Positions 45,500 through 60,765 of a stretch of DNA of 64,000 bases are shown here, one piece after another. The position numbers and the translations under genes are program-made. The notes beneath the pieces were generated by a model. The model searched no databases. It was not told the origin of the DNA and worked only from the letters and a program-made list of their open reading frames with translations. Source of the DNA: Mesorhizobium sp. B2-4-15 (GTDB lineage: Bacteria > Pseudomonadota > Alphaproteobacteria > Rhizobiales > Rhizobiaceae); NCBI RefSeq assembly GCF_006658505.1, contig NZ_VFUZ01000022.1, positions 1 through 64,000 of the forward strand, written 5' to 3'. Positions within the stretch are counted from its first letter, which is position 1, and each line of letters opens with the position of its first letter.

Positions 45500-47086
45500 A
45501 TGCGCGACTTCCAGTTCCCAGGCCGCTCGCCGGTTCGTGCCACCGAGGCCATGGCCGCCACCTCGCACCCGCTGGCGACGCTTGCCGCCATCGACATGCT
45601 GCGCGCCGGCGGCAACGCCATGGACGCGGCGGTCTGCGCGGCCGCCGTGCAAGGCGTGGTCGAGCCGCAATCGACCGGCATCGGCGGCGATTGTTTCGTG
45701 CTCTACTGTCCGGCCGGACAAGGCAATGTGCTGGCCTTCAACGGCTCCGGCCGCGCGCCGGCGGGCGCGACCGTCGACTGGTATCTGGAGAAGGGTTTTG
45801 GCGAGTTGCCGAAGCAAGGCCCGCATGCGGTGACAGTACCGGGCGCCATCGACGCCTGGTGCCGGCTGCTGGAGGACCATGGCCGCAAGGGCATCGCCGA
45901 AGTGCTGGCGCCGGCCATCCACTATGCCGAGAATGGCTATGTCGTGCACGACCGCGTCGCCTTCGACTGGGCCGAGCCGGAGACCGACCTGTCGGCGGAT
46001 GAGCATGCATCGCGCATCTTCCTGCCGGGCGGCAAGGCGCCGGAAGCCGGCGATGTCCATCGCCAGCCGGAACTCGCCGCCACGTTGCGGGTGATCGCCA
46101 AGCATGGCCGCGCCGGATTCTACGAAGGCGCCGTCGCCGACGACATGGTGCGCCGGCTCAATGAACTGGGCGGGCTTCATTCGCATCAGGATTTCGCCGC
46201 GACCAAAGGCGACTATGTGGCGCCGGTCAGCACCTCCTATGGCGGCTATGACATCCACCAGATGCCGCCGAACAACCAGGGGCTGACGGCGCTTTTGATG
46301 CTGAACGTGCTGTCAGGGTTCAAGCTTGGCGGGCTCGATCCCAATGGCGCCGAACGCCTGCATCTGGAGATCGAGGCCGGGCGGTTGGCCTACCAGGACC
46401 GCGACACTTTTCTGGGCGATCAGGACCATGTGACGGTACCGGTGGAGCAGCTTCTGTCCGCCGCCTATGCCGACCGGCTGCGGGCCGAGATCGACAGCGA
46501 GCGCGCCATGACGCATCCGCCGCGCGTCGACCTGCCGGGCAGCGACACCGTCTACATCTCGATCGTCGACCGCGACCGCAACGCGGTCTCCTTCATCAAC
46601 TCGACCTATTATTCCTTCGGCAGCGGCGTCGTCGGCCCGAAGACCGGCGTGGTGCTGCAGAACCGTGGCTCGAGCTTCCGCCTCGACCCGGCGCATCCCA
46701 ACGCGATCGCGCCCGGCAAGCGGCCGATGCACACGATCATGCCCGGCATGGCGACCCGGAATGGCCGCGTGGTGATGCCGTTCGGCGTGATGGGCGGCGG
46801 CTACCAGCCGTTCGGCCATGTCCATCTTTTGACCAATATGGTCGATTTCGGCATGGATCCGCAGCAGGCGGTGGATGCGCCACGGGTGTTCTACAATGAT
46901 GGTGTGGTGGAGGCCGAGCGCAGCGTGCCCGCCGAGGCGGTTGCGGGACTGCGCCGGCGCGGCCATGAGGTCATGGAGCCGCCCCACCCGCTCGGCGGCG
47001 GCCAAGTGGTGCTGATCGACTGGGAAAAGGGAACGCTGACCGGCGCGTCGGATCCGCGCAAGGATGGTTTGGCGCTTGGCTATTGA
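45500..47086 (+). CDS. Gamma-glutamyltransferase family protein
   Basis: A 528-residue Ntn-hydrolase precursor. The N-terminal part has MAATSHPLATLAAIDMLRAG, GNAMDAAVCAA and STGIGGDCFVLYC, as in GGT. Autocleavage and catalysis depend on a Thr at the start of the small subunit; the matching segment is SDTVYISIVDRDRNAVSFIN, so Thr in SDTVY is the predicted nucleophile. No signal peptide is seen, so it is probably cytoplasmic, unlike E. coli Ggt. The start is ATG 45500 (GTG 45476 possible). Linked to a polyamine-type importer, it may release glutamate from an imported gamma-glutamyl amide; this is inference. Confidence 0.9.
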   Translation: MRDFQFPGRSPVRATEAMAATSHPLATLAAIDMLRAGGNAMDAAVCAAAVQGVVEPQSTGIGGDCFVLYCPAGQGNVLAFNGSGRAPAGATVDWYLEKGFGELPKQGPHAVTVPGAIDAWCRLLEDHGRKGIAEVLAPAIHYAENGYVVHDRVAFDWAEPETDLSADEHASRIFLPGGKAPEAGDVHRQPELAATLRVIAKHGRAGFYEGAVADDMVRRLNELGGLHSHQDFAATKGDYVAPVSTSYGGYDIHQMPPNNQGLTALLMLNVLSGFKLGGLDPNGAERLHLEIEAGRLAYQDRDTFLGDQDHVTVPVEQLLSAAYADRLRAEIDSERAMTHPPRVDLPGSDTVYISIVDRDRNAVSFINSTYYSFGSGVVGPKTGVVLQNRGSSFRLDPAHPNAIAPGKRPMHTIMPGMATRNGRVVMPFGVMGGGYQPFGHVHLLTNMVDFGMDPQQAVDAPRVFYNDGVVEAERSVPAEAVAGLRRRGHEVMEPPHPLGGGQVVLIDWEKGTLTGASDPRKDGLALGY

Positions 47087-47126
47087 GGGTGATTGGCGCA
47101 GGGACGGCGGACAATTTCCGGACGCT

Positions 47127-47270
47127 GGCGCCGCCCCTCATTGCCCTGCCGGGCATTTCTCCCCGTATAGGGACGGGGAGAAAGGGCTGGCCGCAACGTC
47201 GGCGGCTATCTCTCTTCTCCCTGTGATTATACGGGGAGAAGGTGCCGGCAGGCGGATGAGGGGCGGCGCC
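47127..47270. repeat. RIME-like palindromic repeat, family A, copy 4
   Basis: A 144-bp element with perfect 14-bp terminal inverted repeats (GGCGCCGCCCCTCA at 47127-47140, TGAGGGGCGGCGCC at 47257-47270). Inner hairpins are TTTCTCCCCGTATAGGGACG-GGGAGAAA and CTTCTCCCTGTGATTATACG-GGGAGAAG. Best-preserved copy in the window, between the GGT and CoA-ligase genes. Confidence 0.88.
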
Positions 47271-47360
47271 GACTTCGACAAGCGCTCTGAAGCGATTGCT
47301 GGATTCTCGATCGTCAACTGGACTCCTCACAACCCGTCGTTTGAAACATAGCCGGTGACC

Positions 47361-48875
47361 ATGACCCACACAAACCTCTCCCGCCGCCTCGTTGCCGGCG
47401 CCGACGACGCCCCGGCCATCCTGGCGCCCGACCGGCCGACGCTGACCCATGGCAAGCTGCGCGCGCTGATCGCGGCCACGGCCAGCCGGCTGCACGCGCT
47501 CGGCATCGGCCGGGGCGACCGGGTGGCGATCGTGCTGCCGAACGGGCCGGAGATGGCGACAGCCTTCGTCGCCGTGGCGGCCGCCGCCTCGACAGCACCG
47601 CTCAATCCCGCCTACCGGGCGGACGAACTCGATTTCTACCTCACCGACATCGGCGCCAAGGCGATCCTTGTCGCGGAGACCGAGGCCGGGCCGGCCGTGA
47701 CGGTCGCCGAACGGCTCGGCATCGGCGTGCTGCGGCTTGTCGTGCAGCCTGGCACTCCCGCCGGCAGCTTTACCATCGAAGGCGCGGCGGTCGGGCCACA
47801 GGCGGCGCTCGACATGGCTGGAGATGGCGACGTCGCGCTTCTGCTGCACACGTCGGGCACCACGTCGCGGCCCAAGCTGGTGCCGCTCAGCCACGCCAAC
47901 ATAGCGGCTTCCGCCTCCCATATCGGCGCAACGCTCGGCCTGACGGCCGATGACCGCTGTCTCAACATCATGCCGCTGTTCCACATCCATGGGCTGATCG
48001 CGGCGGTGCTGTCGTCGCTGGCTTCGGGCGGCAGCATCTACTGCACGCCGGGCTTCAACGCGCTGCGCTTCTTCCAGTGGCTGGGCGACGCCAGACCCAG
48101 CTGGTACACGGCGGTGCCGACCATGCATCAGGCGATCCTGCCGCGCGCGGCCCGCAACGGGGAGGTGCTGGCGGCGGCGCGTCTGCGCTTCATCCGCTCG
48201 TCCTCGGCATCGCTGCCGGCGCAAGTGATGGCCGAACTGGAGACCACCTTCGGCTGCCCGGTGATCGAATCCTATGGGATGACCGAGGCCGCGCACCAGA
48301 TGGCCTCGAACCGGTTGCCCCCCGGCGAGCGCAAGCCGGGCAGTGTCGGCGCATCGGCCGGACCCGACGTGGCGGTGATGGCGCCGGACGGGCGGCTGCT
48401 CGAAGCCGGCGAGACCGGCGAGATCGTCATTCGCGGGCCCAATGTCACTGGCGGCTACGAGAAGAACCCGGACGCCAATGCGACGGCCTTCGCGCATGGC
48501 TGGTTCCACACCGGCGACCAGGGCGTGCTCGACGAGGACGGCTATCTCCGGGTCACCGGCCGGCTGAAAGAGATCATCAACCGGGGCGGCGAAAAGATCT
48601 CGCCGCTCGAGGTCGACGACGTGCTGATGGACCATCCGGCGGTGGCGCAAGTGGTGACCTTCGCCATGCCACACGACAAGCTCGGCGAGGAGGTGGCGGC
48701 GGCAGTGGTTCTGCGCGAAGGCATGAGCGCCACGGAGAGCGATATCCGCAACCATGCCGCTACGCGGCTCGCCGACTTCAAGGTGCCGCGCAAGGTGCTG
48801 ATCCTGGAGGAGATCCCCAAAGGCGCGACCGGCAAGCTGCAGCGCATCGGCCTTGCCGCCAAACTCGGGCTTTGA
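47361..48875 (+). CDS. AMP-forming acyl-CoA synthetase (Pcs60/AAE3-like)
   Basis: A 504-residue adenylate-forming ligase. P-loop HTSGTTSRPKLVPLSHANIA, A5 ESYGMTEAAHQM, A7 GWFHTGDQG and A10 KGATGKLQR (catalytic Lys) are present. HTSGTTSRPK followed by VPLSH is characteristic of the Pcs60/plant AAE3 branch, several of which are oxalyl-CoA synthetases; the acid used here is not certain. Start ATG 47361 (GTG 47355 two codons upstream possible). The next gene begins two bases after its stop, so both are cotranscribed, possibly from a promoter downstream of the repeat. Confidence 0.9.
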   Translation: MTHTNLSRRLVAGADDAPAILAPDRPTLTHGKLRALIAATASRLHALGIGRGDRVAIVLPNGPEMATAFVAVAAAASTAPLNPAYRADELDFYLTDIGAKAILVAETEAGPAVTVAERLGIGVLRLVVQPGTPAGSFTIEGAAVGPQAALDMAGDGDVALLLHTSGTTSRPKLVPLSHANIAASASHIGATLGLTADDRCLNIMPLFHIHGLIAAVLSSLASGGSIYCTPGFNALRFFQWLGDARPSWYTAVPTMHQAILPRAARNGEVLAAARLRFIRSSSASLPAQVMAELETTFGCPVIESYGMTEAAHQMASNRLPPGERKPGSVGASAGPDVAVMAPDGRLLEAGETGEIVIRGPNVTGGYEKNPDANATAFAHGWFHTGDQGVLDEDGYLRVTGRLKEIINRGGEKISPLEVDDVLMDHPAVAQVVTFAMPHDKLGEEVAAAVVLREGMSATESDIRNHAATRLADFKVPRKVLILEEIPKGATGKLQRIGLAAKLGL

Positions 48876-48877
48876 CG

Positions 48878-49858
48878 ATGAAGATCACCATTTTCGGCGC
48901 CGGGGCAATCGGCGGCTATCTCGCCGCCAAGCTGGCGATCGCCGGCCGCACCGATCTTTCGATCGTGGCGCGCGGCGCCCATCTCGAAGCGATCAAGGCA
49001 GACGGCCTGCGCCTGATCGAGGACGGCAAGGAGACGGTCGCGCCCGTGCGCGCTGCCGCCAGGGCCGAGGAACTCGGCGTGCAGGATTACGTGGTGCTGG
49101 CGCTGAAGGCGCACTCGCTCACCCCGGCGCTGGACCAGATCGCGCCGCTGCTCGGGGACAACACATCGGTCGTCACCATGCAGAACGGCGTGCCGTGGTG
49201 GTACTTTCACAAGGTCGGCGGGCCGCTCGAAGGCACGAGGCTGGGCGCGGTCGATCCGGGCGGCGCGATCTGGCAGCGGATCGGGCCGGAGCGCGTCATC
49301 GGCTCGGTCGTCTACCCCGCCGTCGAGGTCGATGCGCCCGGCCTCATCCGCCATGTCGAGGGCAAGCGCTTCTCGCTCGGCGAACCCTCCGGCGAGCGCA
49401 GCGAGCGGGTGACGGCATTGGCGCAGGAGATGGTCAAGGCCGGCCTGCAGGCGCCGGTGCGCGACGACATACGCTCGGAGATCTGGGTGAAGCTGTGGGG
49501 CAACCTCTCCTTCAACCCGATCTCGGCGTTGACCGGCAGCACGCTTGCCGCGATCGTCGCCGACGAAGGCACCCGCCAGCTTGCCCGCACCATGATGCTG
49601 GAAGCCCAGGCGATCGGCGAAAGCCTCGGCGTGCGCTTCGCCATAGGGGTCGACCGCCGCATCAAGGGCGCCGGCGATGTCGGCGAGCACAAGACCTCGA
49701 TGCTGCAGGATCTGGAACGCGGCCGCCCGATGGAGATCGACGCGCTGGTGGGCGCCGTGCGGGAGCTTGGGCGACTGACGGGGACGCCGACGCCGGCCAT
49801 CGATGGGGTGCTGGCGCTGGTGCGGCGGCTGGCGGTGGAGCGGGGGTGCTATGGGTGA
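48878..49858 (+). CDS. 2-dehydropantoate 2-reductase (ApbA/PanE family)
   Basis: A 326-residue ketopantoate-reductase-family protein. The NADPH loop is ITIFGAGAIGGYLAAKL, VVLALKAHSL and MQNGVPWWY precede the substrate domain, and the catalytic-region Lys and Asn lie in IWVKLWGNLSFNPISALT. Several paralogues per genome act on other 2-oxoacids, so a role in pantothenate synthesis is not certain. The ATG at 48878 sits two bases after the CoA-ligase stop. The same frame is open upstream to 48077, a chance reading over the ligase gene. Confidence 0.9.
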   Translation: MKITIFGAGAIGGYLAAKLAIAGRTDLSIVARGAHLEAIKADGLRLIEDGKETVAPVRAAARAEELGVQDYVVLALKAHSLTPALDQIAPLLGDNTSVVTMQNGVPWWYFHKVGGPLEGTRLGAVDPGGAIWQRIGPERVIGSVVYPAVEVDAPGLIRHVEGKRFSLGEPSGERSERVTALAQEMVKAGLQAPVRDDIRSEIWVKLWGNLSFNPISALTGSTLAAIVADEGTRQLARTMMLEAQAIGESLGVRFAIGVDRRIKGAGDVGEHKTSMLQDLERGRPMEIDALVGAVRELGRLTGTPTPAIDGVLALVRRLAVERGCYG

Positions 49859-50243
49859 TGGTAAAAGTCTGGGCGTTGCGACTATGTCCTTACTCAGCGA
49901 GACGCGGCGGTTGACTGTTGATCTAAGGCATCCGCTCTCTATAACCGCGTTCACCCATCGTAACCTTAATGTCCGCGCTACGAATGGCAGCAACGCGCCT
50001 TCAATGGCGGTCATTCCTACGGTCCCGTCGATTCACCAAAAGCGGGCATCCGGCTGTGGCCGCTATCAAAAGAGGTACAAGGGCGACACCAATCGGAACT
50101 CGTGCATTTGTTGCTAGTCCAAGAGACGAAAAAGGAACGCACGAATCGGCTTGAGCCAGGGGGATTCCGGCTTGCGGGCAGGATATTTGTCTGACATATT
50201 TCCTGTTTCCCGAGTTTTGCACTCTGGCGATTGAGGCGTGAGG
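49859..50243. other. 385-bp intergenic region upstream of the GTPase-cyclase cluster
   Basis: No recognisable gene. More AT-rich and of different texture than the sequence to the left. TTGATC (49918-49923), a 16-base spacer and TATAAC (49940-49945) form a possible promoter about 300 bases before the first gene of the signalling cluster; another closer to 50200 cannot be excluded. Otherwise nothing is seen. Confidence 0.45.
49918..49945 (+). promoter_or_regulatory. Possible promoter for the signalling cluster
   Basis: TTGATC and TATAAC separated by 16 bases resemble a sigma-70 promoter. It would give a leader of about 290 bases. No operator-like dyad was recognised next to it. Confidence 0.35.
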
Positions 50244-50909
50244 ATGGCTAAGGACTCTTCGAATGCCGCTTCTTCGGCAAATAAAGCGGACGCAAATCTG
50301 ATAGGTAATGCAGCCGAAAACGGGCTGAATTTCATGGCGGCCCAGGTTCGCGAGAGCGGGGTCTCCGGCGAGGCTGTAGGTGTCGACAAGATACGTGATC
50401 TGCTGTTCGGCAACCAGATGCAGGACTATGACCGCCGCTTTTCCAAGCTTGAAGAACGGTTCTTGCAGCGCTTCAAGGATGTCGAATCCGAGGCCAAGCG
50501 CAATCTTGAGATGTACGAGTCAAATGCAAAGAAGCAGGTCGATTCACTTGCGGGGCAATTGCGCAACGAAAAAGACGCACGAGCCGATGCCGACAAGGAG
50601 ATTGACCGGAATCTTCGCGAGCAAAATCAGGCACTTGAAAAGCAGGTGCGCTCGTTGTCGGATCAATTGAGCGAGCTTGAGCGCGAAGTTTCGGATCGGA
50701 TAAATCGAAGCGACCATTCGCTGCGTGAGGAAATCAAGCAGAAGAATGAAAGCGTTCAGATGCTAATGGAGAAATTCTTTTCCGATCTCAGCAACGTCAA
50801 GACCGACCGAAATCTTTTGGCTGGCCTGTTTATCGAGGTTGCGAAGTGTCTGAATCAGGATCCCATCGGCAGCAAGGGCAACTCGGAACGCAGCTGGAAA
50901 GTGAGTTGA
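50244..50909 (+). CDS. Coiled-coil protein, first gene of the GTPase/OmpA/cyclase cluster
   Basis: A 221-residue soluble protein without signal or membrane segment. A low-complexity Ala/Ser/Asn start is followed by a short folded element VDKIRDLLFGNQMQDYDRRF and a long heptad-rich coiled coil (residues about 65-185: LEERFLQRFKDVESEAKRNL, then many Glu/Lys/Gln heptads), ending in SNVKTDRNLLAGLFIEVAKC. I do not recognise a characterised family. GAGG eight bases upstream supports ATG 50244. The stop lies seven bases before the OmpA-like gene, so the genes form one transcript. It may scaffold or bridge the membrane protein, GTPase and cyclase. Confidence 0.75.
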   Translation: MAKDSSNAASSANKADANLIGNAAENGLNFMAAQVRESGVSGEAVGVDKIRDLLFGNQMQDYDRRFSKLEERFLQRFKDVESEAKRNLEMYESNAKKQVDSLAGQLRNEKDARADADKEIDRNLREQNQALEKQVRSLSDQLSELEREVSDRINRSDHSLREEIKQKNESVQMLMEKFFSDLSNVKTDRNLLAGLFIEVAKCLNQDPIGSKGNSERSWKVS

Positions 50910-50916
50910 TCGGAAC

Positions 50917-53580
50917 TTGAGGTCGACCGTCGACCCAATCAACCCTTCTGAAAGAGCCGCTGCGAACGATACCGAGATTGATCGCGAGGCTCTGGCTCGG
51001 CTTTTGGTCGAAATTGCCCGGAACGTTGATCCGGACCACGGTGCGCTTTTCGACGGAATTCCAACCGCCGATCATCGCATGGAAACGCTTCGCCAGCTGC
51101 TGGTCGGCCGCGAAATTTCGGAGCTTTCAAGAGTTGCGCACCTGCTTGACGAACCTGAGCAGCTTGCGGCAGCAGTGGGGAGCGTTCTCCCCGATGCGGC
51201 CGCACGTGCGTCTCATGCGCAACTCGGCGAGGCATTCGCGCCGATTGTCGAGAGGGCCGCGCAAAGGTCCATCCAGAAGAACCCGCGCACGCTGACGGAT
51301 ATACTGTACCCGGTGTTTCTGCCGGCTATTCGCAAGTCGATCGGCGAAAAGATCGACCAGACCTTTCAGTCGCTGAATGAATCTTTAAGACATATATTTA
51401 CCTGGCATGGACTTAAGTGGAGATTTGAAGCTTGGAGAACGGGTGCAAGCTTCTCAGAAGTTGTTCTTAATCATTCTCTTGTCTATCGTGTTGAACATGT
51501 CTTTCTTATCGACCGCAGTTCCGGGCTTTTGATTGCACATGTAACTGCCGAAAATGCTATGAGCGAGGATCCTCAGCTCATTTCTTCGATGCTCAGCGCA
51601 ATTCAAGATTTTGTAAGGGACTCATTTAACGAGAAAGAACAGAGCGGCCTGGACACTATCCGTTTTGGGGAGCTTCGTCTCTGGTCGGAGGTTGGACCGT
51701 TTGCGACACTGGTTTCGGTGATCAGGGGCAATCCGCCGGAAGAACTACACGAAATAATTCGCGACGTATTGCTCCGCATCCATGATGAATACTCACAGGC
51801 TTTGGAGCATTTCGACGGCGACAGTTCGCAACTGGCCAGCGTAGAGACGCAGTTGCAAACCTGTGTTGAACTGAAGCACGAGGAATCAAACGAGGGATTT
51901 CCGTGGCTGGTGGTGGCCGCGGTCCTGCTGGTTTTGATTCCGACGGGCATTTGGTTCTTTCTTTCCTGGCAATCCGGGCAGCGCTGGCAGGCCTATGTGT
52001 CACGAGTGGCGAGCCAGCCTGGCATCATTGTTGCCGAGCAAACGGCGCGCGATGGCCAATTCTATATAGCCGGCCTGAGAGACCCGCTTGCCGCCGACCC
52101 GCAGTCGCTGTTGTCCGGAACGCAGGTCGATCCCGCCCGCGTTCATGCGAACTGGCAATTCTATCAGAGCCTTGAGCCGGAGTTCGTGTTGAAGCGGCTG
52201 ACGGCATCGCTGGCTCCGCCGGATTCGGTGCGACTTTCGGTCGTCAAGGATCGCATCGTTGCCGAGGGCGAGGCTAACGCCACGTGGATCAGCCGGGCGC
52301 AGGCCGCCGCCCAGCAGCTTTCTGCAGGCGGACCGGTATTCGATATCTCCAGGGTCCGTGATGTGAGCCCCGAAGCACGCGCGGCAGAGCACTGGCAGGC
52401 CTATGTGTCGCGACTGGGGACCCAGCCGGGCATCATCGTTGCCGAACAAAAGATCCGCGATGGCCAATTCTATATTGCCGGCCTGCGAGACCCGCTTGCC
52501 GCCGACCCGCAGTCGCTGCTGTCGGGAACGCAGGTCGATCCCGGCAGGGTCCATTCGCAGTGGCAATTCTATCAAAGCCTTGAACCGGAGTTCGTGTTGA
52601 AGCGGCTGACGGCGTCGCTGTACCCGCTGAAATCGGTTCGGCTTTCGATCGTCGACAATCGCATCGTTGCCGAGGGTGAGGCTCCCGACACCTGGATAGA
52701 TCGGGCGCGCGCCGCGGCCCGACTGCTTTCGGCAGGCGGACCGGAATTCGACATCTCCAAGGTTCGTGATGTGAGCCCCGAAGCACGCGAGGCGGAGCAC
52801 TGGCAGTATTATGTGTCGCGACTCGAGGCCCAACCGGGAATCATCGTCGCCCAACAAACGGAGAGGGGAGGCCAATTCTACATTTCCGGCCTGAGAGACC
52901 CGCTTGCCGCCGACCCGAAAGCTCTGCTGTCCGGAACGCAGGTTGATCCTGCCCGCGTTCATTCACAGTGGCAATTCTTTCAGAGCCTTGATCCAAAGTT
53001 CGTGGTGAAGCGGCTGACGGCGTCGCTGTCCCCGCCGAAATCGGTTCAGCTTTCGATCATCCAAGGTCGCATCCTAGTCGTGGGGGAGGCTCCTGCCGGC
53101 TGGATCAGCCGGGCACAGGCCGCCGCCGAACAACTTTCGGCGGACGGAGTGGTTCTGGACGTCTCGCAGCTGCGCGAGCTGAACCTTGCAGAACTTAATC
53201 ATTTGAGAGAGGCCATCCAGACGACCGATATTTTCTTCTCTTCCGGTAGAGTTGTCCCGGGACCGGAGCAGTCGCCGGTGCTCGACAGATTGGCTGATCA
53301 ATTGAAGGAATTCGCCGAAAATGCCCGCAAGGCAGGCGTGACAGCGCGGTTCATGTTGACCGGCCATTCAGACACAACGGGCCGTGAGACGGCCAACGCG
53401 TCGATCAGTGCCGCCCGCGCCGAGACAGTTCGCGCGCTTCTCAACAAGCGCGGCGTCGCTCCGGAACTGCTGCTGGTTCGGGGCGCCGGCACCTTTGAGC
53501 CAGCGGTGCCCGAAAATGAAAATAGTCGAACTGGGAACTCCACCAATCGCCGGGTTTCGGTTACGGTAAACCTGGAGTAG
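50917..53580 (+). CDS. Single-pass protein: longin/roadblock-like cytosolic region, three BON-like periplasmic repeats, OmpA C-terminal domain
   Basis: An 887-residue protein. Residues 1-327 are cytosolic and mostly helical. Residues about 188-300 (EHVFLIDRSSGLLIAHVTAE, then DPQLISSMLSAIQDFV) have the strand-helix pattern of longin/roadblock GTPase partners. Residues about 328-350 form one transmembrane helix (WLVVAAVLLVLIPTGIWFFL). Residues about 357-764 are three 136-residue repeats, each with PGIIVAEQ...GLRDPLAADP and a BON-like half (VRLSVV.DRIVAEGEA). Residues about 765-887 are an OmpA domain (TGHSDTTG, then SISAARAETVRALL) that should bind peptidoglycan. The start is TTG 50917, since no ATG occurs before residue 55; this is the least certain point. 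Confidence 0.82.
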   Translation: MRSTVDPINPSERAAANDTEIDREALARLLVEIARNVDPDHGALFDGIPTADHRMETLRQLLVGREISELSRVAHLLDEPEQLAAAVGSVLPDAAARASHAQLGEAFAPIVERAAQRSIQKNPRTLTDILYPVFLPAIRKSIGEKIDQTFQSLNESLRHIFTWHGLKWRFEAWRTGASFSEVVLNHSLVYRVEHVFLIDRSSGLLIAHVTAENAMSEDPQLISSMLSAIQDFVRDSFNEKEQSGLDTIRFGELRLWSEVGPFATLVSVIRGNPPEELHEIIRDVLLRIHDEYSQALEHFDGDSSQLASVETQLQTCVELKHEESNEGFPWLVVAAVLLVLIPTGIWFFLSWQSGQRWQAYVSRVASQPGIIVAEQTARDGQFYIAGLRDPLAADPQSLLSGTQVDPARVHANWQFYQSLEPEFVLKRLTASLAPPDSVRLSVVKDRIVAEGEANATWISRAQAAAQQLSAGGPVFDISRVRDVSPEARAAEHWQAYVSRLGTQPGIIVAEQKIRDGQFYIAGLRDPLAADPQSLLSGTQVDPGRVHSQWQFYQSLEPEFVLKRLTASLYPLKSVRLSIVDNRIVAEGEAPDTWIDRARAAARLLSAGGPEFDISKVRDVSPEAREAEHWQYYVSRLEAQPGIIVAQQTERGGQFYISGLRDPLAADPKALLSGTQVDPARVHSQWQFFQSLDPKFVVKRLTASLSPPKSVQLSIIQGRILVVGEAPAGWISRAQAAAEQLSADGVVLDVSQLRELNLAELNHLREAIQTTDIFFSSGRVVPGPEQSPVLDRLADQLKEFAENARKAGVTARFMLTGHSDTTGRETANASISAARAETVRALLNKRGVAPELLLVRGAGTFEPAVPENENSRTGNSTNRRVSVTVNLE
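51985..53208 (+). repeat. Three tandem 408-bp repeats inside the OmpA-like gene
   Basis: Units begin with the codon for Trp at 51985, 52393 and 52801, exactly 408 bp (136 codons) apart, with long stretches of identical DNA such as CGCTTGCCGCCGACCCG. Units 1 and 2 are the most alike; unit 3 has diverged and runs into the OmpA domain. Equal length and high identity point to fairly recent duplication or gene conversion. Confidence 0.9.
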
Positions 53581-53592
53581 TCGGAGCCCGGG

Positions 53593-54087
53593 ATGCTGCA
53601 AAAAAAGATATGCATGTTGGGCGGGTTTGCTGTCGGCAAGACGAGCCTGGTGCGCAGGTTCGTCCAAAGCATCTTCTCGGAAACCTACCTGACCACGGTT
53701 GGCGTGAAAATCGACAAGAAGAGTGTCGCGTTTCCGGATAAAACCGTGGATCTGATTTTGTGGGATCTGGCCGGCGAAGACGATATCGGCTCATTCCGCG
53801 TCAGCTATGTGCGAGGAGCGACCGGGCTCGTGCTCGTCGTCGATGGAACCCGGCCCGCTACTCTGGCCGTGGCGCTCACGCTGCGCGAGCGGGTCGAGGC
53901 CGAATTCGGCGCTATGCCGTTCGTATTGCTGTTCAACAAATCCGATCTCGCCGATCGATGGGCGATACCGGATGGTGAGATCGACGAACTGAGGCAGCTT
54001 GGATGGCAAATCTATCTGACAAGTGCGCTTTCGGGTGCATATGTCGAAGATGCGTTTCGCCAGCTTGCCTCGATGGTCGCCAAATAG
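53593..54087 (+). CDS. Ras/Rab-like small GTPase
   Basis: A 164-residue protein, the size of a bare Ras G domain. G1 is GGFAVGKTS (residues 10-18, aligning with Ras numbering), G2 Thr35 in TYLTTVGVKI, G3 WDLAGED (57-63), G4 NKSD (115-118) and G5 TSA (143-145). Position 12 is Phe and 13 Ala instead of Gly-Gly, and the catalytic Gln61 position is Glu, so intrinsic GTP hydrolysis may be slow or use another residue. There is no lipidation tail. It belongs with prokaryotic Ras-superfamily GTPases of unknown role. It starts 12 bases after the OmpA-like gene and ends 3 bases before the cyclase. Confidence 0.9.
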   Translation: MLQKKICMLGGFAVGKTSLVRRFVQSIFSETYLTTVGVKIDKKSVAFPDKTVDLILWDLAGEDDIGSFRVSYVRGATGLVLVVDGTRPATLAVALTLRERVEAEFGAMPFVLLFNKSDLADRWAIPDGEIDELRQLGWQIYLTSALSGAYVEDAFRQLASMVAK

Positions 54088-54090
54088 ATC

Positions 54091-55164
54091 ATGCATGGAT
54101 TGCCAAGAGAAGTCAGAAGCTGGATTTTCAATTTCTTCTACAATGAGCACGCTGTCGCATATCTGAAAATTGACGCCCAGCTTTGCATAGCCGCGAAGGG
54201 CGGCAACGTTAAACATTACGGACTCTCATCGCTTCGCACTGGCAAGCCTGTTGCCGATCAGCTTGACTTCATGGAAGGTTTGCTGCCTTGCCCGGAGCTT
54301 CCATATCATATGGCCATGGTGGAACTGCCCAGCGGGCGTGTCGCGGACCTTCATCTTTTTGCTGCTGACAATGCCTGCGTGTGGCTGCTCTTTCTTGACG
54401 CCACTGCCGAACGCGACAACAGGCAGCGACTTCAACAGAAGGCTTATGAAATGACGCTCCTGCAAGAGAGGGAGCGTCAACTCAACGAGAAACTGCAATC
54501 GACGAACGAGGCACTGAGGGAGAGCCAGGAGGGATTGTCGCGTGAATACCAGCGCGCCGAAACCCTTCTCCTCAACATTCTTCCGGCGTCGATCGCGCAG
54601 CGGTTAAAGGCGCAAGAACAAATTGCGGACAACCATGCAGAGGTGAGTGTGCTTTTCGCCGACATCGTCGGCTTTACGGAAAGAGCGCTGAGCGTTGGAG
54701 CCGTGACGACGCTCGCGATCTTGAATTACTTCTTCAAGGCGGCGGATCTGCTCTCAGAAGAATACGGCTGCGAAAAGATCAAGACAATCGGCGACTGTGT
54801 GATGGTGGTGGCCGGCCTGCCCGTCGCGCGGTCCGATCATGCAGAAGCCCTTGCGCACTATGCACTTGAGCTGCGGGAGGTGGGTAGGCGCGAACGCTTC
54901 GCGGGAGAACCGCTGAGACTGAGAATTGGAATCCACTCAGGACCAATCGTGGCGGGCGTCATAGGCAACAGGCGCTTTGCCTATGACCTGTGGGGCGACA
55001 CCGTCAATCTCGCCGCACGTATTCAAAAGTCCGCGGAGCCCGATGAGATACGTATTTCGGATGCAACTCACAAACTGCTTGGACCAAATTTTGCTCGCGA
55101 CCCACTCGGGGAAACGGAATTGCGTGGTACAGGTCGTGTGCGAATGTGGCGGCTCCGGGCCTGA
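54091..55164 (+). CDS. Class III adenylate cyclase with N-terminal PAS-like domain
   Basis: A 357-residue soluble cyclase. Residues about 15-110 look like a PAS-type sensor; residues 115-165 form a signalling coiled coil (RERQLNEKLQSTNEALRESQ) leading into LLLNILPASIAQRLK, the usual cyclase transducer. In the catalytic domain, Asp191 (LFADIVGFTE) and Asp235 (KTIGDCVM) bind metal, Lys231 and Asp299 (YDLWGDTVN) are the adenine-selecting pair, and Asn306 and Arg310 stabilise the transition state. All are intact, so cAMP production is predicted. It starts three bases after the GTPase stop, which suggests control by the GTPase. Confidence 0.92.
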   Translation: MHGLPREVRSWIFNFFYNEHAVAYLKIDAQLCIAAKGGNVKHYGLSSLRTGKPVADQLDFMEGLLPCPELPYHMAMVELPSGRVADLHLFAADNACVWLLFLDATAERDNRQRLQQKAYEMTLLQERERQLNEKLQSTNEALRESQEGLSREYQRAETLLLNILPASIAQRLKAQEQIADNHAEVSVLFADIVGFTERALSVGAVTTLAILNYFFKAADLLSEEYGCEKIKTIGDCVMVVAGLPVARSDHAEALAHYALELREVGRRERFAGEPLRLRIGIHSGPIVAGVIGNRRFAYDLWGDTVNLAARIQKSAEPDEIRISDATHKLLGPNFARDPLGETELRGTGRVRMWRLRA

Positions 55165-55297
55165 TTTGCCGCTTGGCAGTGCCGACCCTGAAGCGCATTG
55201 CATCTCAAGCTAATCCAACATCATCGTGTCGAATGTCCGCAGAGGTGCAAGAAGCAGTCGACCACCGAGCGACCGCCAAAAGGTCCGTCCCGGGGCA

Positions 55298-55317
55298 CTC
55301 AGGACATCGGTCCTGAG
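55298..55317 (+). terminator. Possible terminator after the signalling cluster
   Basis: CTCAGGAC-ATCG-GTCCTGAG is a perfect 8-bp stem with a four-base loop, 134 bases after the cyclase stop, followed by ATTTAG rather than a true T-run. It lies between the convergent cyclase and lrgB genes. Confidence 0.4.
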
Positions 55318-55451
55318 ATTTAGCGCCCGCCATCATTCTTCCCTGCACCACAAGCGGGCCTACTGCTGGTGATGCGCGACGGCTCCGGTTCGATGATCGG
55401 GACATCGTGTCCAGTCCCAATGAACTGTACGTCCGATTGTTCGCCTTGCAG

Positions 55452-56174
55452 CTATTTCCAAAACAAAAACATGAGTGGAACTATGATGGCGGTCAAAAGA
55501 CCATTCAAGCCGATTCCGACCGCGGCAAATGCAGCGCCAAGTTCATTGCGTGCCGCGACCTGGGCGGCCGCGACGCCACTACCAGCAACACCCGCTGCCA
55601 GTCCGTGTGCGCGCCAGTCTCGAATGTTCAATCGATGCAGCATTTCCTGGCCCAGAATAGCCGCCAGAATTCCGCCGAGGATGGCGAGCGCGGCCGTCAG
55701 TGCGGGTACGCCTCCAATCTCAATTGAGACTGCCATGGCAATAGGCGTTGTGACGCTCTTTGGCGCCATGGAGAGGGCAACATCTTTCGTTCCACCGAGG
55801 ACCCAAACGATAAGGACGCCACTGATGATCGAGGTCAGCGAACCGGCGATCAACGCGATGCCGATGCTGTGAAGGTTGTGTCGAACAAGATCAATGTTCT
55901 TGGCAAGCGGAACGGCTAAGGCAATCGTCGCAGGCCCGAGAAGGAAGTTGATGAACTGGGCGCCCGCGAAATACGACTGGTAAGTTGTTCGCGTCAGCAG
56001 CACGATCGCAGAGACGACTGCGATTGAAATCAGGACGGGACTAGCAAGGGCTGAACCCGAGAACCACTTCTGGATCACGAGACCAAACACGTAGGCGCCG
56101 AGCGTGACGGCAAGCCAAAGCAAGGGTGTCGCGGAGAGAGGGATCCAGACATGTTGGAAGACATTGTTGCTCAT
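55452..56174 (-). CDS. lrgB: LrgB/CidB-family membrane protein
   Basis: A 240-residue protein with about seven hydrophobic segments. GPATIALAVPLAKNIDLVRH, SVTTPIAMAVSIEIGG and the C-terminal ARNELGAAFAAVGIGLNGLL are the conserved blocks of the family. LrgB works with LrgA in holin/antiholin-like control of murein hydrolysis in Gram-positive bacteria, and in plants and some bacteria in glycolate/pyruvate export. Start overlaps the lrgA stop by four bases. A divergent LysR gene 150 bp upstream of lrgA is the likely regulator, a standard arrangement. Confidence 0.93.
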   Translation of the reverse strand: MSNNVFQHVWIPLSATPLLWLAVTLGAYVFGLVIQKWFSGSALASPVLISIAVVSAIVLLTRTTYQSYFAGAQFINFLLGPATIALAVPLAKNIDLVRHNLHSIGIALIAGSLTSIISGVLIVWVLGGTKDVALSMAPKSVTTPIAMAVSIEIGGVPALTAALAILGGILAAILGQEMLHRLNIRDWRAHGLAAGVAGSGVAAAQVAARNELGAAFAAVGIGLNGLLTAIIVPLMFLFWK

Positions 56175-56566
56175 AACGTCCTCTCACTGTTGATAAGGGC
56201 CACTTTTGTATGACGGGTCCGGCTCGTCCAATGCATTACGAAGCCGGTGATGGCGACACTCAGGATCGTCGATCCAACTAGCCCAACAAGGATTGGTAGC
56301 CATTCGGCTCTGAGCAGGCCGCCTTGCGAAATTACACCAACACCGGCGGGTACGAACAGGAGGCCCATGTAACGGATGAAGGTCTCTGCCGTGCGTTCGA
56401 CCTCGACCGGGATGTTCCGATTTGTTCCGGTTTTCTGCCAACAGACCAACAACGCGCCGAGGAAAAACATGCCTATTACGGGACCAGGGATAGGCAGCGA
56501 AAGAAGCTCTCGCAGAACCTCCCCGGTCAACTGGCAGCCTACAAATAGAAAAATTGCGGCGAGCAT
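56171..56566 (-). CDS. lrgA: LrgA/CidA-family holin-like protein
   Basis: A 131-residue protein with four transmembrane helices: MLAAIFLFVGCQLTGEVLRE, then LPIPGPVIGMFFLGALLVCW with the conserved IPGPVIGM, and LLFVPAGVGVISQGGLL. Length is typical. It pairs with LrgB. Divergent from the LysR gene at 56715, with a promoter region of about 150 bp between them. Confidence 0.93.
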   Translation of the reverse strand: MLAAIFLFVGCQLTGEVLRELLSLPIPGPVIGMFFLGALLVCWQKTGTNRNIPVEVERTAETFIRYMGLLFVPAGVGVISQGGLLRAEWLPILVGLVGSTILSVAITGFVMHWTSRTRHTKVALINSERTL

Positions 56567-56714
56567 ATTCGTTCCTTAGACATCGCATCTCCAGGCTCAC
56601 ACTCGGAGGCCCATGTCGTGCTTTTTTTTAGAAGACATGCAAAGATAGGCGTGTGGGGCTGCCTCTGAAATCACCTTTTGGGCAAAAGACTATTGCAGAG
56701 GGGGAGGGTTTCGC

Positions 56715-57644
56715 ATGGACTATTTTGCGGCAATGGGAGCGTTTGTGCGATCCGTCGAGCTCGGCAGTTTCTCGAAGGTGGCGGCCGAGAGCGGCATGAA
56801 GATCTCGACCGTGTCGCGGTACATCGCGGCGCTCGAATCCGACCTCGGCGCCGCGCTATTCAACAGGACCACGCGACGGCTGAAGCTGACAGAGGCGGGA
56901 CGCACCTTTTATGAAAAGGCGGTCCAGGTTCTGATCGATCTCGATGATGCAAGGCAGATGACATCGGCGCTGAACAGCAAACCTCAGGGCGTTCTGCGGA
57001 TCAATATCCCAAGTGTATTTGGCAGGCGCCACGTAATGCCGCATATGAAGGACTTTCTCGCCCAATATCCCGACATTACCCTCGATGCGACCTTGACGGA
57101 CCTGACAGTCGATCTCGTCGAGACAGCGACCGATGTCGCTGTTCGGATTGGAGCGCTGAACGACTCGACCCTGATTGCGAAAAGACTTGCCGCTCAGAAG
57201 CGCATGCTCGTTGCCGGGCCGGACTATTTTAACAACGGGAAGATGCCGACAGATCCGACTGACCTCACTCGTTACGAGTGTCTTCCATTCACGCTGAGGC
57301 AACCAGCTCACTGGTACTATCGGCCCGTCGCCGCCCCAGGCGCCGAAATGTCAGAAATTTCCATCAGCGGTCATTTGCGGACGAATGATTCAGAGACGCT
57401 GCGCGATGCAGTACTGTCAAATCAGGGCATCGCTCTTCTGCCAACGTGGCTGGTGGGCGAGGATATCGGTGCCGGACGTTTGGTCACACTTTTGGAGGCT
57501 TGGGAATGGAATATTGTCCCGGAGTTCAATTCGATAATCTGGGGAATCTATCCGCCCAAAAAGGTTGTTTCCCCCAAAGTTCGCGTATTCATCGATTTCA
57601 TTGCTGGCCGTTTCGGCTCTCCGCCCTATTGGGAAAGAACGTAA
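56715..57644 (+). CDS. LysR-family regulator (CrgA-like), divergent from lrgAB
   Basis: A 309-residue LysR protein of the CrgA/DsdC branch: MDYFAAMGAFVRSVELGSFSKVAAE HTH region with KISTVSRYIAALESDLGAAL, then the PBP2_CrgA-like effector domain (VLRINIPSVFGRRHVMPHM, AVLSNQGIALLPTWLVG). It is divergent from lrgA and probably controls the lrgAB genes. GGAGGG lies nine bases upstream of the ATG. Confidence 0.9.
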   Translation: MDYFAAMGAFVRSVELGSFSKVAAESGMKISTVSRYIAALESDLGAALFNRTTRRLKLTEAGRTFYEKAVQVLIDLDDARQMTSALNSKPQGVLRINIPSVFGRRHVMPHMKDFLAQYPDITLDATLTDLTVDLVETATDVAVRIGALNDSTLIAKRLAAQKRMLVAGPDYFNNGKMPTDPTDLTRYECLPFTLRQPAHWYYRPVAAPGAEMSEISISGHLRTNDSETLRDAVLSNQGIALLPTWLVGEDIGAGRLVTLLEAWEWNIVPEFNSIIWGIYPPKKVVSPKVRVFIDFIAGRFGSPPYWERT

Positions 57645-57729
57645 CAATCGCTGACGCTGTAGCTTCCAAAACCATGACCCCGGTGTCCTATCCGGATTGT
57701 CGCATTAGCGTGCGGTCTTCCGTCTGTGA

Positions 57730-58749
57730 TCACCCGTTCATTAGCGAGAGAATGTCGCGCCATTTGGACCTGAATGCCTCGACACAGGCGGGATCGAAAT
57801 GGCTGCCGCTGCAGCGAACAATTTCCTCGTAGGCTTGCTCAGCCAGCCAAGCCGGCTTGTAGGGTCGCTCCGAGCACAAGGCGTCGAAGACGTCAGCCAC
57901 GCTAACGATACGTCCTTCCAACGGGATATCGTCTCCAGCCAAGCCGTAAGGATAGCCGCTCCCGTCCCACCTTTCGTGATGCGTGCCGGCGATGATGGCG
58001 GCCACCCGTGTAAGATCCGTGCAGCCGTCCTCCAGTATCCACATGCCATGCTGAACATGCCTGCGCATGATCTGCACTTCTTCGTCACCAAGGCGTCCGG
58101 GCTTTTGAAGAATCTTGTCCGGGATTGCGATCTTCCCGACATCGTGAAGGGGCGCAGCCAGATAGATGATCCGCGCACGATCCTCACCGAGACCCAGGCC
58201 CAGGGCGATGAGTCGGGCGATTTCAGCCACACGGGAAATATGACTACTGGTTGTACCATCGCGCAACTCCATCGCCCGGGCAAGCCGCCAAACGATCTCT
58301 TCCTCTCTCCTCGCCAGATTGAAAGTGATGGTGTGGACTTCAGACGCCAGATGCCGGGCTATCTTAGTGAGTTCGATTTGCGCTCGGCGCAGCGCAAGCA
58401 AATTGCGTGCGCGCGCCTGAAGTTCGACCCGGTCGAACGGCTTGGTGAGGAGATCGGTCGTGCCGACCTTGATGGCCTGGACGCGAAGCGCGGCTTCGGT
58501 CAACGGAGTGATCATGATGATGGGAACGAGCCGGTAGGGCTCCATCTCCCGGAGCGCCGCGACCAACTCAATCCCATTCATCTTCGGCACGGCGTAGTCG
58601 ATGATGATGAGATCGAATTGTTCCGTTTGGCATTGCTGCATTGTCTCTCGCGAATGCAAGCAGCCGTGAACGGTACAGCCGATTGCCTTCATCGCGTTCA
58701 TTATCGCGGCAAGACTCGACCTGCTGTCGCCGACTACAAGTAAGTTCAC
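57730..58749 (-). CDS. Response regulator with HD-GYP domain (predicted cyclic-di-GMP phosphodiesterase)
   Basis: About 339 residues. A receiver domain (residues 1-120: NLLVVGDSRSSL, phospho-acceptor Asp in FDLIIIDYAVPKMNG, Lys in LLTKPFDRVEL) is joined by a coiled linker to an HD-GYP domain with APLHDVGKIAIPDKIL, HHERWDGSGYPYGLAGDDIP and ISVADVFDAL-like VSVADVFDAL. HD-GYP domains hydrolyse c-di-GMP. The receiver has one acidic residue fewer than usual in the metal pocket (VGDS instead of VDDE), so phosphorylation may be altered. GTG 58749 follows GGGGGA; another GTG lies at 58779. No histidine kinase is nearby. Confidence 0.9.
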   Translation of the reverse strand: MNLLVVGDSRSSLAAIMNAMKAIGCTVHGCLHSRETMQQCQTEQFDLIIIDYAVPKMNGIELVAALREMEPYRLVPIIMITPLTEAALRVQAIKVGTTDLLTKPFDRVELQARARNLLALRRAQIELTKIARHLASEVHTITFNLARREEEIVWRLARAMELRDGTTSSHISRVAEIARLIALGLGLGEDRARIIYLAAPLHDVGKIAIPDKILQKPGRLGDEEVQIMRRHVQHGMWILEDGCTDLTRVAAIIAGTHHERWDGSGYPYGLAGDDIPLEGRIVSVADVFDALCSERPYKPAWLAEQAYEEIVRCSGSHFDPACVEAFRSKWRDILSLMNG

Positions 58750-59140
58750 GGCATCCCCCAACAGAAGGTCCGCAAACACGGAACGGCACCTTTCGCATCA
58801 AAGATATAGATTGTCGGGGAGTCCCGCGTTTGTCCGCCCCAATGCTGAAGGCTCTTCGAACTTCGTGACATGTCGGCCCGCGCTTTTATCGTCTGTCCTG
58901 TGCGAGCCGGTTCCGGCCCATACTCGGTAATCAGGTATTAGGACCCGCGAGGAGGGGTCGCGGTCCACGGGAGCCTGATGATCTGCGACATGGCGGGGAC
59001 CGAGTTCCAAACCAACGGCCGGCTCCGTTCTCGCCCGGATCGAACCGGCACAACATCCTGCTGCGCCGGCCTTAATCCTGGTTACTCCGCGCCGACATCG
59101 ACGAGCAGCAGCGTCCGTGCCGAGCTCGGCGGGTCAGAAG
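58750..59140. other. 391-bp intergenic region
   Basis: No supported gene on either strand. Short open frames exist but lack ribosome sites and recognisable products. It separates the response regulator's start from the DoxX gene's stop. Composition is similar to the flanks. Confidence 0.5.
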
Positions 59141-59563
59141 CTAAATTCCCGCAGGGCTCAGCGACTGCTTCGTGGCAGGCCGCAGTAGATTATCAATTGC
59201 CAACCTGCCAGGGCCGGCGAAGGCGAGATAGAGGAAGATGAAGCAGAACATAATGGCGAGTTCCCCCGTATTCAGCGCAGGCCAGAAGCCTTGCGGCGCA
59301 TGTGCCATCCAATAGGCGGCGGCCATCTCGCCGGAGGCGACAAAGGCGGCAATGCGGGTATAGAGGCCCAAGGTCATCAGCAATCCAGTGACGATTTCGA
59401 TTGCGCCGGCGACGAGCATGATGGTCGGCAGCGGGTAGGAGACGCCGGAAATTGCTGCCGGGAACTGGAAGAACTTCATCGTGGCGTGTTCGAGGAACAG
59501 CAGTGCGGTCACGATCCGCAGAACGGCAAGAACGTAGACTCCCCAATTCTCTGTGTTTGGCAT
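59141..59563 (-). CDS. DoxX-family membrane protein
   Basis: A 140-residue protein with four transmembrane helices: LAVLRIVTALLFLEHATMKF, PTIMLVAGAIEIVTGLLMTL, AFVASGEMAAAYWMAHAP and GELAIMFCFIFLYLAFAGPG. This is the DoxX/TQO small-subunit-like family; the conserved Arg, His and Glu in the helices fit. Small DoxX proteins are often linked to oxidative or aromatic stress, but no function is established. It lies near a DODA-type dioxygenase, 310 bp away and on the same strand. Confidence 0.88.
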   Translation of the reverse strand: MPNTENWGVYVLAVLRIVTALLFLEHATMKFFQFPAAISGVSYPLPTIMLVAGAIEIVTGLLMTLGLYTRIAAFVASGEMAAAYWMAHAPQGFWPALNTGELAIMFCFIFLYLAFAGPGRLAIDNLLRPATKQSLSPAGI

Positions 59564-59874
59564 TGTGTTTTCTCCAATGGCTATTGATATTGGTCAGGCG
59601 GCCGGAGCCTTTTCCAAGTTTCGTCCTTGGCTTGAATGGGCCTTCAACATAGCTTGAGGATCGGCATATTCTCGCGCTTCTAAAACCGCCCGGCCGGCGG
59701 GAACGCGATGACCTCATCGGATACGATAACAACCCCGCTCAGGTCGGGCAGGAAGCTCACCCGTCGAGGTGCCCGCCGAGTTGGCATGACCTCGTCTCCC
59801 GTATCGAGCCGGGCTCGGACTCAATATTCCTCTACCTCTTCCATCATGTCGACTTTCGAGCAACAACTGCTTCT
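59564..59874. other. 311-bp region between the dioxygenase and DoxX genes
   Basis: No gene recognised. It must contain the promoter for the DoxX gene, read leftward, and the end of the dioxygenase transcript. Some short open frames in the right half have no ribosome site and no recognisable similarity. Confidence 0.45.
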
Positions 59875-60765
59875 TTAGGCAGACCGGGACCTAGACAATC
59901 GTGTTCGACCTATGTCGCTCATGGTTTCTCCTTGGAATGAGACAGTTTCGGGCGCGTTGCCAAAGCGAAAACTGGAAGCAGTCAGCCCTCCCGCAAAGTC
60001 CGTCTGGTGGTAGGTGACGGCACCTGGTTCGTCCCTGGCCGCGCCGACTGCCACCATCAGCGGGATGAGATGGTCCTCGCGCGGATGTGCCGCTCGAGCG
60101 AAGGGGACTTTGTCCCATGCCAGCAGCTGCTGGACACGCTCATCGGGCGAGGAGTCAATCAGGGTCTGCCGCAACCAGGCGTCGAACTGGCGAGACGGCT
60201 CATGCCCGCTGTGGTCCCGCATCGCTCCCAGATTGTGATAGCTGAGGCCACTCCCAATGATCAAAACCCCATCGTCGCGCAGGGGTGCCAGAGCTCGCCC
60301 AGCCTCAAGGTGCAGCGCCGGGTCATAGCTAGCATCGAGTGAGAGCTGGACAATCGGGATATCCTCATCCGGATAAAGCGGTTTCATGATGCTGAAGGTC
60401 CCGTGGTCAAAGCCGCGGGTCGGATCAAGCCTCGCCTCGATATCATGTGCGTGCAATAAATCCTGCACGTGCTTCGCAAGATCGGGCGAACCGGGTGCGT
60501 CATATCTAATGTGATAGAGATATTCCGGGAACCCCTGATAGTCGTAAACCATTCCCGGTTTGGCACCTGAGGATATGGCAAACCCCTGCTGCTCCCAGTG
60601 ACCCGAAACCATTAGGATCGCCGCTGGCGCGTTGCCGACCTCGGCCCGCATTTCGATCAGCGATCGCTCAAGCCTGTCGAAATTGCGGCGAAATTCGCCC
60701 TCCATAAACGGCCAAGGGCCACCGCCATGACTGACGAAATACGTTGGAAGGCGAGGTCTGTTCAT
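59875..60765 (-). CDS. DODA-type class III extradiol ring-cleavage dioxygenase family protein
   Basis: A 296-residue LigB-superfamily protein like YgiD/4,5-DOPA dioxygenase. His in YFVSHGGGPWPF, SGHWEQQG, GFDHGTFSIMKPLYP and HPREDHLIPL match the metal-binding and catalytic positions of the family. It would cleave a catechol or act as a YgiD-like enzyme of unclear substrate. The ATG at 60765 begins the family N-terminus (NRPRLPTYFVSHGGG); the frame continues upstream to 61002 across the divergent LysR start and is not used. It is divergent from the LysR gene at 60899, a familiar pair. Confidence 0.9.
   Translation of the reverse strand: MNRPRLPTYFVSHGGGPWPFMEGEFRRNFDRLERSLIEMRAEVGNAPAAILMVSGHWEQQGFAISSGAKPGMVYDYQGFPEYLYHIRYDAPGSPDLAKHVQDLLHAHDIEARLDPTRGFDHGTFSIMKPLYPDEDIPIVQLSLDASYDPALHLEAGRALAPLRDDGVLIIGSGLSYHNLGAMRDHSGHEPSRQFDAWLRQTLIDSSPDERVQQLLAWDKVPFARAAHPREDHLIPLMVAVGAARDEPGAVTYHQTDFAGGLTASSFRFGNAPETVSFQGETMSDIGRTRLSRSRSA

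Follow-up and report, generated by a model that had tools for sequence, protein, structure and literature searches.

Organization of the locus

The window analysed here, a 64,000-nucleotide stretch of contig NZ_VFUZ01000022.1 from Mesorhizobium sp. B2-4-15, carries four open reading frames on one strand that encode, in order, a coiled-coil protein, a membrane protein with a C-terminal OmpA domain, a Rab-like small GTPase, and a class III adenylate cyclase (Table 1). An earlier reading of the letters alone (the sequence-only reading) had described four intact and closely packed genes at this place, and the frames, with intergenic distances of 7, 12, and 3 bp, agree with that description; its domain calls were likewise borne out by Pfam matches to OmpA (3.6e-11), Ras (3.3e-27), and Guanylate_cyc (9.8e-48), while neither the coiled-coil protein nor the non-OmpA remainder of the OmpA protein had a match over the cut-off. 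The proposal that the OmpA protein crosses the membrane once also held, as a single strong hydrophobic stretch (residues 331-349, hydropathy 2.65) was found in this protein, and no 19-residue window above 1.6 was found in the coiled-coil protein, the GTPase, or the cyclase. Positions 49800-55500 had no match in Rfam, and a scan for promoters and terminators gave nothing beyond chance.

Table 1. Features of the four-gene cassette and its flanks (positions of the window)
Feature	Position	Strand	Basis
Conserved region 5' of the operon, probable promoter and leader	50050..50243	+	blastn; alignment of 13 sequences
Coiled-coil protein gene, 221 aa	50244..50909	+	ORF call
Helix motif at the C-terminal end of the coiled-coil protein, aa 185-211, similar to the OmpA-protein N-terminus	50796..50876	+	hhalign
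Gene for longin-TM-periplasmic repeats-OmpA protein, 887 aa, TTG start	50917..53580	+	ORF, Pfam
OmpA-protein N-terminal motif, aa 19-45, similar to the helix motif of the coiled-coil protein	50971..51051	+	hhalign
Predicted longin domain, aa 189-321	51481..51879	+	AlphaFold2; Sec22b longin superposition
Single transmembrane helix, aa 330-351	51904..51969	+	hydropathy 331-349; predicted helix
Three tandem 136-aa repeats, presumed periplasmic	51982..53202	+	repeat analysis
OmpA peptidoglycan-binding domain, aa 783-870	53263..53526	+	Pfam PF00691 3.6e-11
Rab-like small GTPase gene, Rup Group 1 kind, 164 aa	53593..54087	+	ORF, Pfam
Gene for PAS-signalling helix-class III adenylate cyclase, 357 aa	54091..55164	+	ORF, Pfam
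Predicted PAS domain, putative GTPase effector domain, aa 20-105	54148..54405	+	AlphaFold2, photoactive yellow protein match
Q116 codon, the one column invariant across the 26 output-side N-termini aligned	54436..54438	+	alignment
Class III cyclase catalytic domain, aa 180-355	54628..55155	+	Pfam PF00211
Short stretch 3' of the operon, co-travelling in some relatives	55201..55367	+	11/80 loci match within

Near the cassette, the opposite strand encodes a receiver-HD-GYP protein (57730-58779, Pfam), a probable c-di-GMP phosphodiesterase. Two adjoining membrane-protein ORFs on the minus strand (55452-56566) resemble LrgB/LrgA (CidB/CidA) by eye, and a LysR regulator lies close to them at 56715.

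Conservation and apparent mobility of the cassette

A scan of genome contigs for the GTPase yielded 340 confirmed related loci, the best 80 of which were compared. The sequence-only reading had named conservation of the neighbourhood and its order in other genomes as a check on its proposal; all four genes were found in the same order on one strand in 71 of these 80 loci, which argues that the arrangement is not due to chance. The first gene was missing in eight of the 80, where the contig stops within the OmpA gene and the coiled-coil gene is hence out of sight, and in one locus (L093, Desulfobacterales) the fourth gene encodes a histidine kinase with an N-terminus that had no BLAST match. 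In four loci (L024, L033, L063, and L070) the OmpA frame as read is broken or shortened, through either an assembly fault or true loss. Most of the best 80 loci, including the nearest named ones, are from Mesorhizobium; the other carriers among them include Rhizobium, Rhodopila, Variovorax, Limnobacter, and the cyanobacterium Scytonema, so that the shared order reaches beyond Mesorhizobium to a cyanobacterium and, with a different output, to a desulfobacterium.

The gap between the GTPase and cyclase genes is 3 bp, in frame, in 71 of the 79 loci measured, nearly all of which are close relatives, and the GTPase-output gap is 2, 6, 7, or 10 bp in six others; the two further values, 201 bp (L084, where the GTPase frame is broken) and 16 bp (L085, where the nearest ATG lies 4 bp past the stop), are not true gaps. 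The six deviating lengths fit translational coupling. Fusion of GTPase and cyclase by stop-codon readthrough, also considered, was ruled out by this difference in gap length.

Beyond these loci, a profile of the N-terminal part of the OmpA protein had matches in 49 of 398 sampled Pseudomonadota genomes (E ≤1e-8). Twenty further Pseudomonadota regions were picked for diversity from the hits of this profile together with one GTPase hit (G090), and coiled-coil, longin-OmpA, and GTPase genes were found in this order in 19 of them; the coiled-coil matches in L127-L133 are weak (E 1e-4 to 1e-6), and the GTPase is truncated by a contig end in L129 and matched in part only in L145. Region L141 (5944-8117) holds coiled-coil and longin-OmpA homologues, with neither GTPase nor effector detectable in the 12 kb read. 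Within the family to which the window belongs, the GTPase is patchily distributed (4 of 151 genomes at E ≤1e-10, the window's own included), and two of these four genomes show only 33-37% identity.

Regions L127-L133 appear as a second, distant clade with a short coiled-coil gene, a longin-OmpA homologue, and a GTPase; L127, which is from the window's own genus, belongs to this clade. The GTPases of L127 and L128 are 33-37% identical to the window's, and WDTDGD or WDTDGN is present in the G3 motif of L127, L128, L130, L131, and L133. A PAS histidine kinase gene comes next after the GTPase in L130, and no clear output gene was seen by eye downstream in L127, L128, L131, and L132.

Conservation of the DNA ends close to the four genes. 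Positions 50050-50200 were matched in 29 of the best 80 loci (blastn, E ≤1e-20), and at the same threshold neither the preceding 4.5 kb or so (45501-50049) nor about 5.5 kb downstream (55368-60900) was matched in any of the 80; this comparison had 1 kb or more of farther flank to draw on upstream in 68 loci and downstream in 74. Third-position GC is 0.61-0.69 in the four cassette genes versus 0.83-0.90 in three upstream genes; it is still 0.61-0.73 downstream of the cassette, and GC alone therefore does not mark the right end. The GTPase is also present on three plasmid records; the genes annotated on pWSM1497 run from a hypothetical protein through an OmpA family protein and a Rab family GTPase to a cyclase, and the Rhizobium plasmid record has no gene table at that place. 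Since flanks vary and plasmid copies occur, the four genes apparently travel together as a mobile signalling cassette. On pWSM1497 (L176), a redoxin-domain gene and two more cyclase-domain genes come next after the module.

The predicted longin-OmpA membrane protein and its coiled-coil neighbour

Sequence searches with residues 1-352 of the OmpA protein returned nothing significant in Pfam or the PDB. An AlphaFold2 model of this part, built from 25 rows, has a mean pLDDT of 56 and a pTM of 0.39 overall; within residues 191-320, pLDDT is 72-86 in nine of 13 ten-residue blocks, and it falls to 47-63 in the four blocks of residues 211-250, the first helix region. The predicted order of secondary structure in 191-320 (beta-beta-alpha-beta-beta-beta-alpha-alpha) is that of a longin domain. 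Foldseek gave 12 matches at E ≤0.001, mainly small subunits of AP and COPI, and its matches also include MglB (ranks 10 and 26) and Mon1-Ccz1 structures. Residues 189-321 superposed by VIA-align on the Sec22b longin with a Z of 15.8 (rmsd 2.3, 127 aligned), followed, among the matches listed, by Ykt6 (13.8), a Fuzzy-Inturned chain (13.1), TRAPP (about 10-11), and Mon1-Ccz1 (10.2). MglB, although absent among the 50 VIA-align matches listed, may still be related. We thus describe residues 189-321 as a predicted longin domain, preceded by a helical stretch that the model leaves undefined.

Helix 330-351 is the only clear membrane span of the protein, and the longin side would be cytosolic since the OmpA domains sit in the periplasm. 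The number of 136-aa repeats varies among 59 rows (the window and its close relatives), with four in 27, three in 26, two in 3, one in 2, and five in 1, some counts perhaps reflecting incomplete frames; by eye, each repeat appears to hold two BON-like halves. The OmpA domain carries GHSDTTG at 816 and SAARAETV at 831, motifs in which the Asp and the Arg presumably contact diaminopimelate; with both contacting residues present, the domain is a putative peptidoglycan anchor.

The longin fold is used by several Rab exchange factors to hold Rabs. Longin domains also act without GTPase partners, in SNAREs (PMC10933270). A protein of this architecture could instead be a mere anchor that places GTPase and cyclase at the envelope, with the regulator of the GTPase encoded elsewhere. 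The variable repeat number would suit a spacer, and Roadblock/longin assemblies can scaffold and recruit GTPases, e.g., in Ragulator (PMC10933270); however, no other obvious GTPase regulator lies within the cassette, and the same study describes Roadblock/longin dimers as mainly exchange factors, and we hence regard the anchor-only role as unlikely compared with a longin domain that acts on the GTPase.

The C-terminal helix of the coiled-coil protein resembles the N-terminal helix of the OmpA protein (hhalign E 1.7e-4, probability 49%, versus E 0.15-0.96 in five column shuffles). A much better value, reached once the input was trimmed to the matching parts, was given no weight. This common motif may serve in docking or co-assembly; it is not universal, since the OmpA proteins of L092 and L093 do not have the stretch. 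A second candidate motif common to the two proteins, RxLLxG, was discarded as unsupported because 2 of 20 shuffles score near it.

The Rab-like GTPase

The nearest solved relatives of the GTPase by sequence are Rab23 and Rab6. The assignment as Ras/Rab-like in the sequence-only reading stands on the Pfam Ras match, with the qualification that position 62 holds Glu where Ras and Rab proteins have the catalytic Gln. Motifs G1, G3, and G4 are of the Ras type apart from this missing Gln: among 100 GTPase rows, G15 and K16 are kept in 99, and D58, G61, N115, K116, and D118 in 98, the others being gaps. Position 62 is Glu in 85 rows, Asp in 5, Ile in 3, and a gap in 2, with Lys, Arg, Val, Ala, and Asn once each; Gln was thus found in none of the 98 sequences with a letter there. 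With DLAGE as its G3, the protein does not carry the PGQ ending of G3 that marks the MglA family.

A tree of 28 GTPase rows has poor resolution (stars on 7 of its 25 inner branches, and a single very long branch) and implies a minimum of five output changes, a figure that carries no evidential weight, with some output labels assigned by likeness rather than by Pfam scan (L018, L066, L070, L086, L088, L135, L136, L138, and L143); in L138 no output gene was seen.

The output protein

The N-terminus of the cyclase had no sequence match in the PDB and nothing significant in Pfam. Its AlphaFold2 model (33 rows) has a pLDDT of 89 and a pTM of 0.75, and VIA-align matched the model to photoactive yellow protein with a Z of 10.6 (rmsd 2.1, 85 aligned); further matches by Foldseek and VIA-align include the ThkA PAS domain (Z 10.4), phytochromes, and other PAS proteins, and we assume that the matched structures without PAS in their titles also carry PAS domains. 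Profile comparison with PAS_4 from the same genome gave 8% for the close set and 1% for the wide output set. On the basis of the model, we predict a PAS fold for this N-terminus.

In relatives outside the close ones, this N-terminal region is 34-50% identical and what comes after it differs. Twenty proteins were scanned with Pfam, two of them OmpA-type proteins and 18 outputs; the latter comprised five cyclases, six SpoIIE phosphatases, five histidine kinases, and two GGDEF-EAL proteins. In L092, the histidine kinase is a separate gene beside a stand-alone domain. When the N-termini of 26 output-side proteins (25 loci, four output types) were aligned, Q116 of the window's cyclase was the one invariant column, with Gln in all 26, at the start of the helix that follows the PAS core; for several divergent kinase and GGDEF-EAL N-termini, this alignment is the sole basis of the PAS kinship.

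PAS domains often sense small ligands, and signal flow might therefore be reversed, with the PAS domain sensing a ligand or redox state and instructing the longin-OmpA protein through the GTPase, so that the cyclase would be a second readout; the OmpA protein, with one to five repeats depending on the locus, could then be a structural effector. However, different enzyme classes are found behind a retained N-terminal region, a pattern that would suit a receiver with interchangeable outputs, and the only invariant residue is the Gln after the PAS core, for which reason no conserved ligand pocket is evident. We judge reversed flow to be distinctly unlikely relative to a PAS domain that receives the state of the GTPase.

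The cyclase catalytic residues had been called intact, and D191, K231, D235, D299, N306, and R310 are all present; we take D191 and D235 to be the metal-binding Asp residues, K231 and D299 the substrate pair, and N306 and R310 the transition-state residues. The nearest solved relatives are adenylate cyclases 9 and 5 together with several chains named just adenylate cyclase, and the catalytic region was aligned to adenylate cyclase 9. By its sequence, the fourth protein thus has the full catalytic residue set of a class III adenylate cyclase.

Relationship to known systems

The sequence-only reading knew of no described system of this kind; that claim falls, since the four-gene neighbourhood was predicted in 2014 by Wuichet and Sogaard-Andersen as that of the Group 1 Rup GTPases (PMC4316618). 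For Group 1, that paper puts forward a complex signal transduction system as a hypothesis and mentions Mesorhizobium loti among the carriers. The outputs that it gives as typical are GGDEF/EAL proteins or histidine kinases, and it leaves the other domain of the OmpA protein unassigned; it also links the missing Gln of the GTPase to an invariant Gln on the output side, and states that no Rup member had been experimentally characterised. The present locus has the same coiled-coil protein, unknown domain-TM-OmpA protein, Gln-less Ras-type GTPase, and Gln-bearing output, and differs in that its output is a class III adenylate cyclase rather than a GGDEF/EAL protein or a histidine kinase. As the wording of PMC4316618 on outputs is "typically", a cyclase output is a variant and not a ground for exclusion from Group 1; its main text uses the word cyclase a single time, for diguanylate cyclase, and its supplementary Table S2 may already list a cyclase output. 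The cassette is almost certainly of the Rup Group 1 type, and Q116 appears to be the invariant output-side Gln of PMC4316618 as far as its description goes; what is new about the Gln is that it is located in a cyclase member and mapped there to the junction of the PAS domain and the helix. Our analysis further adds a predicted longin fold for the membrane protein, a predicted PAS fold for the output N-terminus, SpoIIE outputs among the relatives, and the signs of mobility. No later study of a Rup system was found in a literature search with thin coverage of subscription papers and preprints.

Three other bacterial and eukaryotic arrangements, and one comparable in logic, bear comparison. MglA/MglB likewise combine a small GTPase with a partner of related Roadblock fold (MglB being among the Foldseek matches), but the cassette GTPase does not have the MglA-type G3 motif, which PMC4316618 gives in its description of the family as TVPGQ or GTPGQ, and no free Roadblock protein was seen in the cassette, where the predicted longin domain is instead fused to a transmembrane helix and an OmpA domain. 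The actinobacterial conservon CvnA-D (PMC4316618, section 18) likewise consists of four genes and includes a small GTPase, a partner with the Roadblock/longin superfold, and a membrane protein presumed to provide the input; the cassette differs in having no kinase receptor, a separate cyclase output, and a GTPase that is Rab-like and not MglA-like. In the Rab exchange platforms Mon1-Ccz1, Fuzzy-Inturned, and TRAPP, a longin domain acts on a Rab GTPase, as is proposed for the cassette; unlike the cassette, they are multi-subunit trafficking assemblies, and a heterodimer is not evident here. Fuzzy-Inturned is a partner of Rab23, the nearest solved GTPase, a link that may be coincidence. In yeast, Ras works with a class III adenylate cyclase that bears leucine-rich repeats; the pairing of a Ras-family GTPase with a class III cyclase is the same, a likeness in logic only, as the cyclase architecture is another and there is no OmpA anchor.

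Proposed signalling circuit

The circuit from OmpA protein to GTPase to cyclase put forward in the sequence-only reading gains support, even though its novelty does not survive PMC4316618, because gene order is kept, longin and PAS domains are predicted, and a Gln is invariant. From the genes, their order and conservation, the missing and the invariant Gln, and the swapped outputs, all of them read from sequence, we infer the contacts, direction, signal, and effect on cAMP that follow. The second protein would be anchored to peptidoglycan by its OmpA end, pass the inner membrane once, and expose its longin domain to the cytosol; this domain, alone or with the coiled-coil protein, would bind the Rab-like GTPase and alter its nucleotide state, most likely by exchange, upon loading or displacement of the envelope part. 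GTP-bound GTPase would then bind the PAS domain of the cyclase and alter the signalling helix that joins it to the catalytic domain, so that cAMP output would track the state of the GTPase. As the GTPase has no catalytic Gln and all aligned outputs have an invariant one, the output protein itself may complete the GTPase active site through this Gln and end the signal.

These parts differ in strength. We lean towards control of the cyclase by the GTPase, and a Group 1 Rup signalling circuit with cAMP as its output is, to a similar degree, the probable function of the cassette; for the envelope part as the source of the input, the case is evenly balanced. Action of the output-side Gln in trans on the GTPase is a tentative proposal, held with less than even confidence. 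Somewhat more doubtful is the fullest form of the model, a self-contained, mobile bacterial longin-Rab pair in which a wall-tied longin switches the GTPase and the effector, by supplying the Gln that the GTPase lacks, both reads and ends the signal.

The four genes might also be merely co-inherited, with the cyclase outside the control of the GTPase: co-location cannot prove contact, operon neighbours need not touch, and with ten matches to the class III cyclase domain in the genome there are other sources of cAMP. That Mesorhizobium shares the order with a cyanobacterium and, with the output swapped, with a desulfobacterium speaks against this, as does the Gln shared by all 26 aligned output-side proteins, and we consider co-inheritance alone improbable, more so than any other alternative to the GTPase-controlled cyclase.

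Implications

The predicted longin and PAS folds, assigned to two previously unassigned Rup domains, turn a gene list into a testable mechanism. The presence of a Rab-like GTPase and a predicted longin domain in one bacterial operon is also relevant to how the trafficking switches of eukaryotes arose. According to a 2012 analysis, longins descend from Roadblock proteins that partnered MglA-like GTPases in prokaryotes (PMC3521125), and a 2024 study reports that in one Asgard archaeon GTPase genes are generally not operonic with Roadblock/longin genes (PMC10933270); the novelty of a bacterial longin is limited by a 2016 review that already lists Longin/Roadblock in Bacteria (PMC4917890). If the bacterial longin predicted here is homologous to those of eukaryotes, a Rab-longin signalling switch exists outside the archaeal-eukaryotic line, and the cassette would bear on whether Roadblock domains gave rise to longins at eukaryogenesis.
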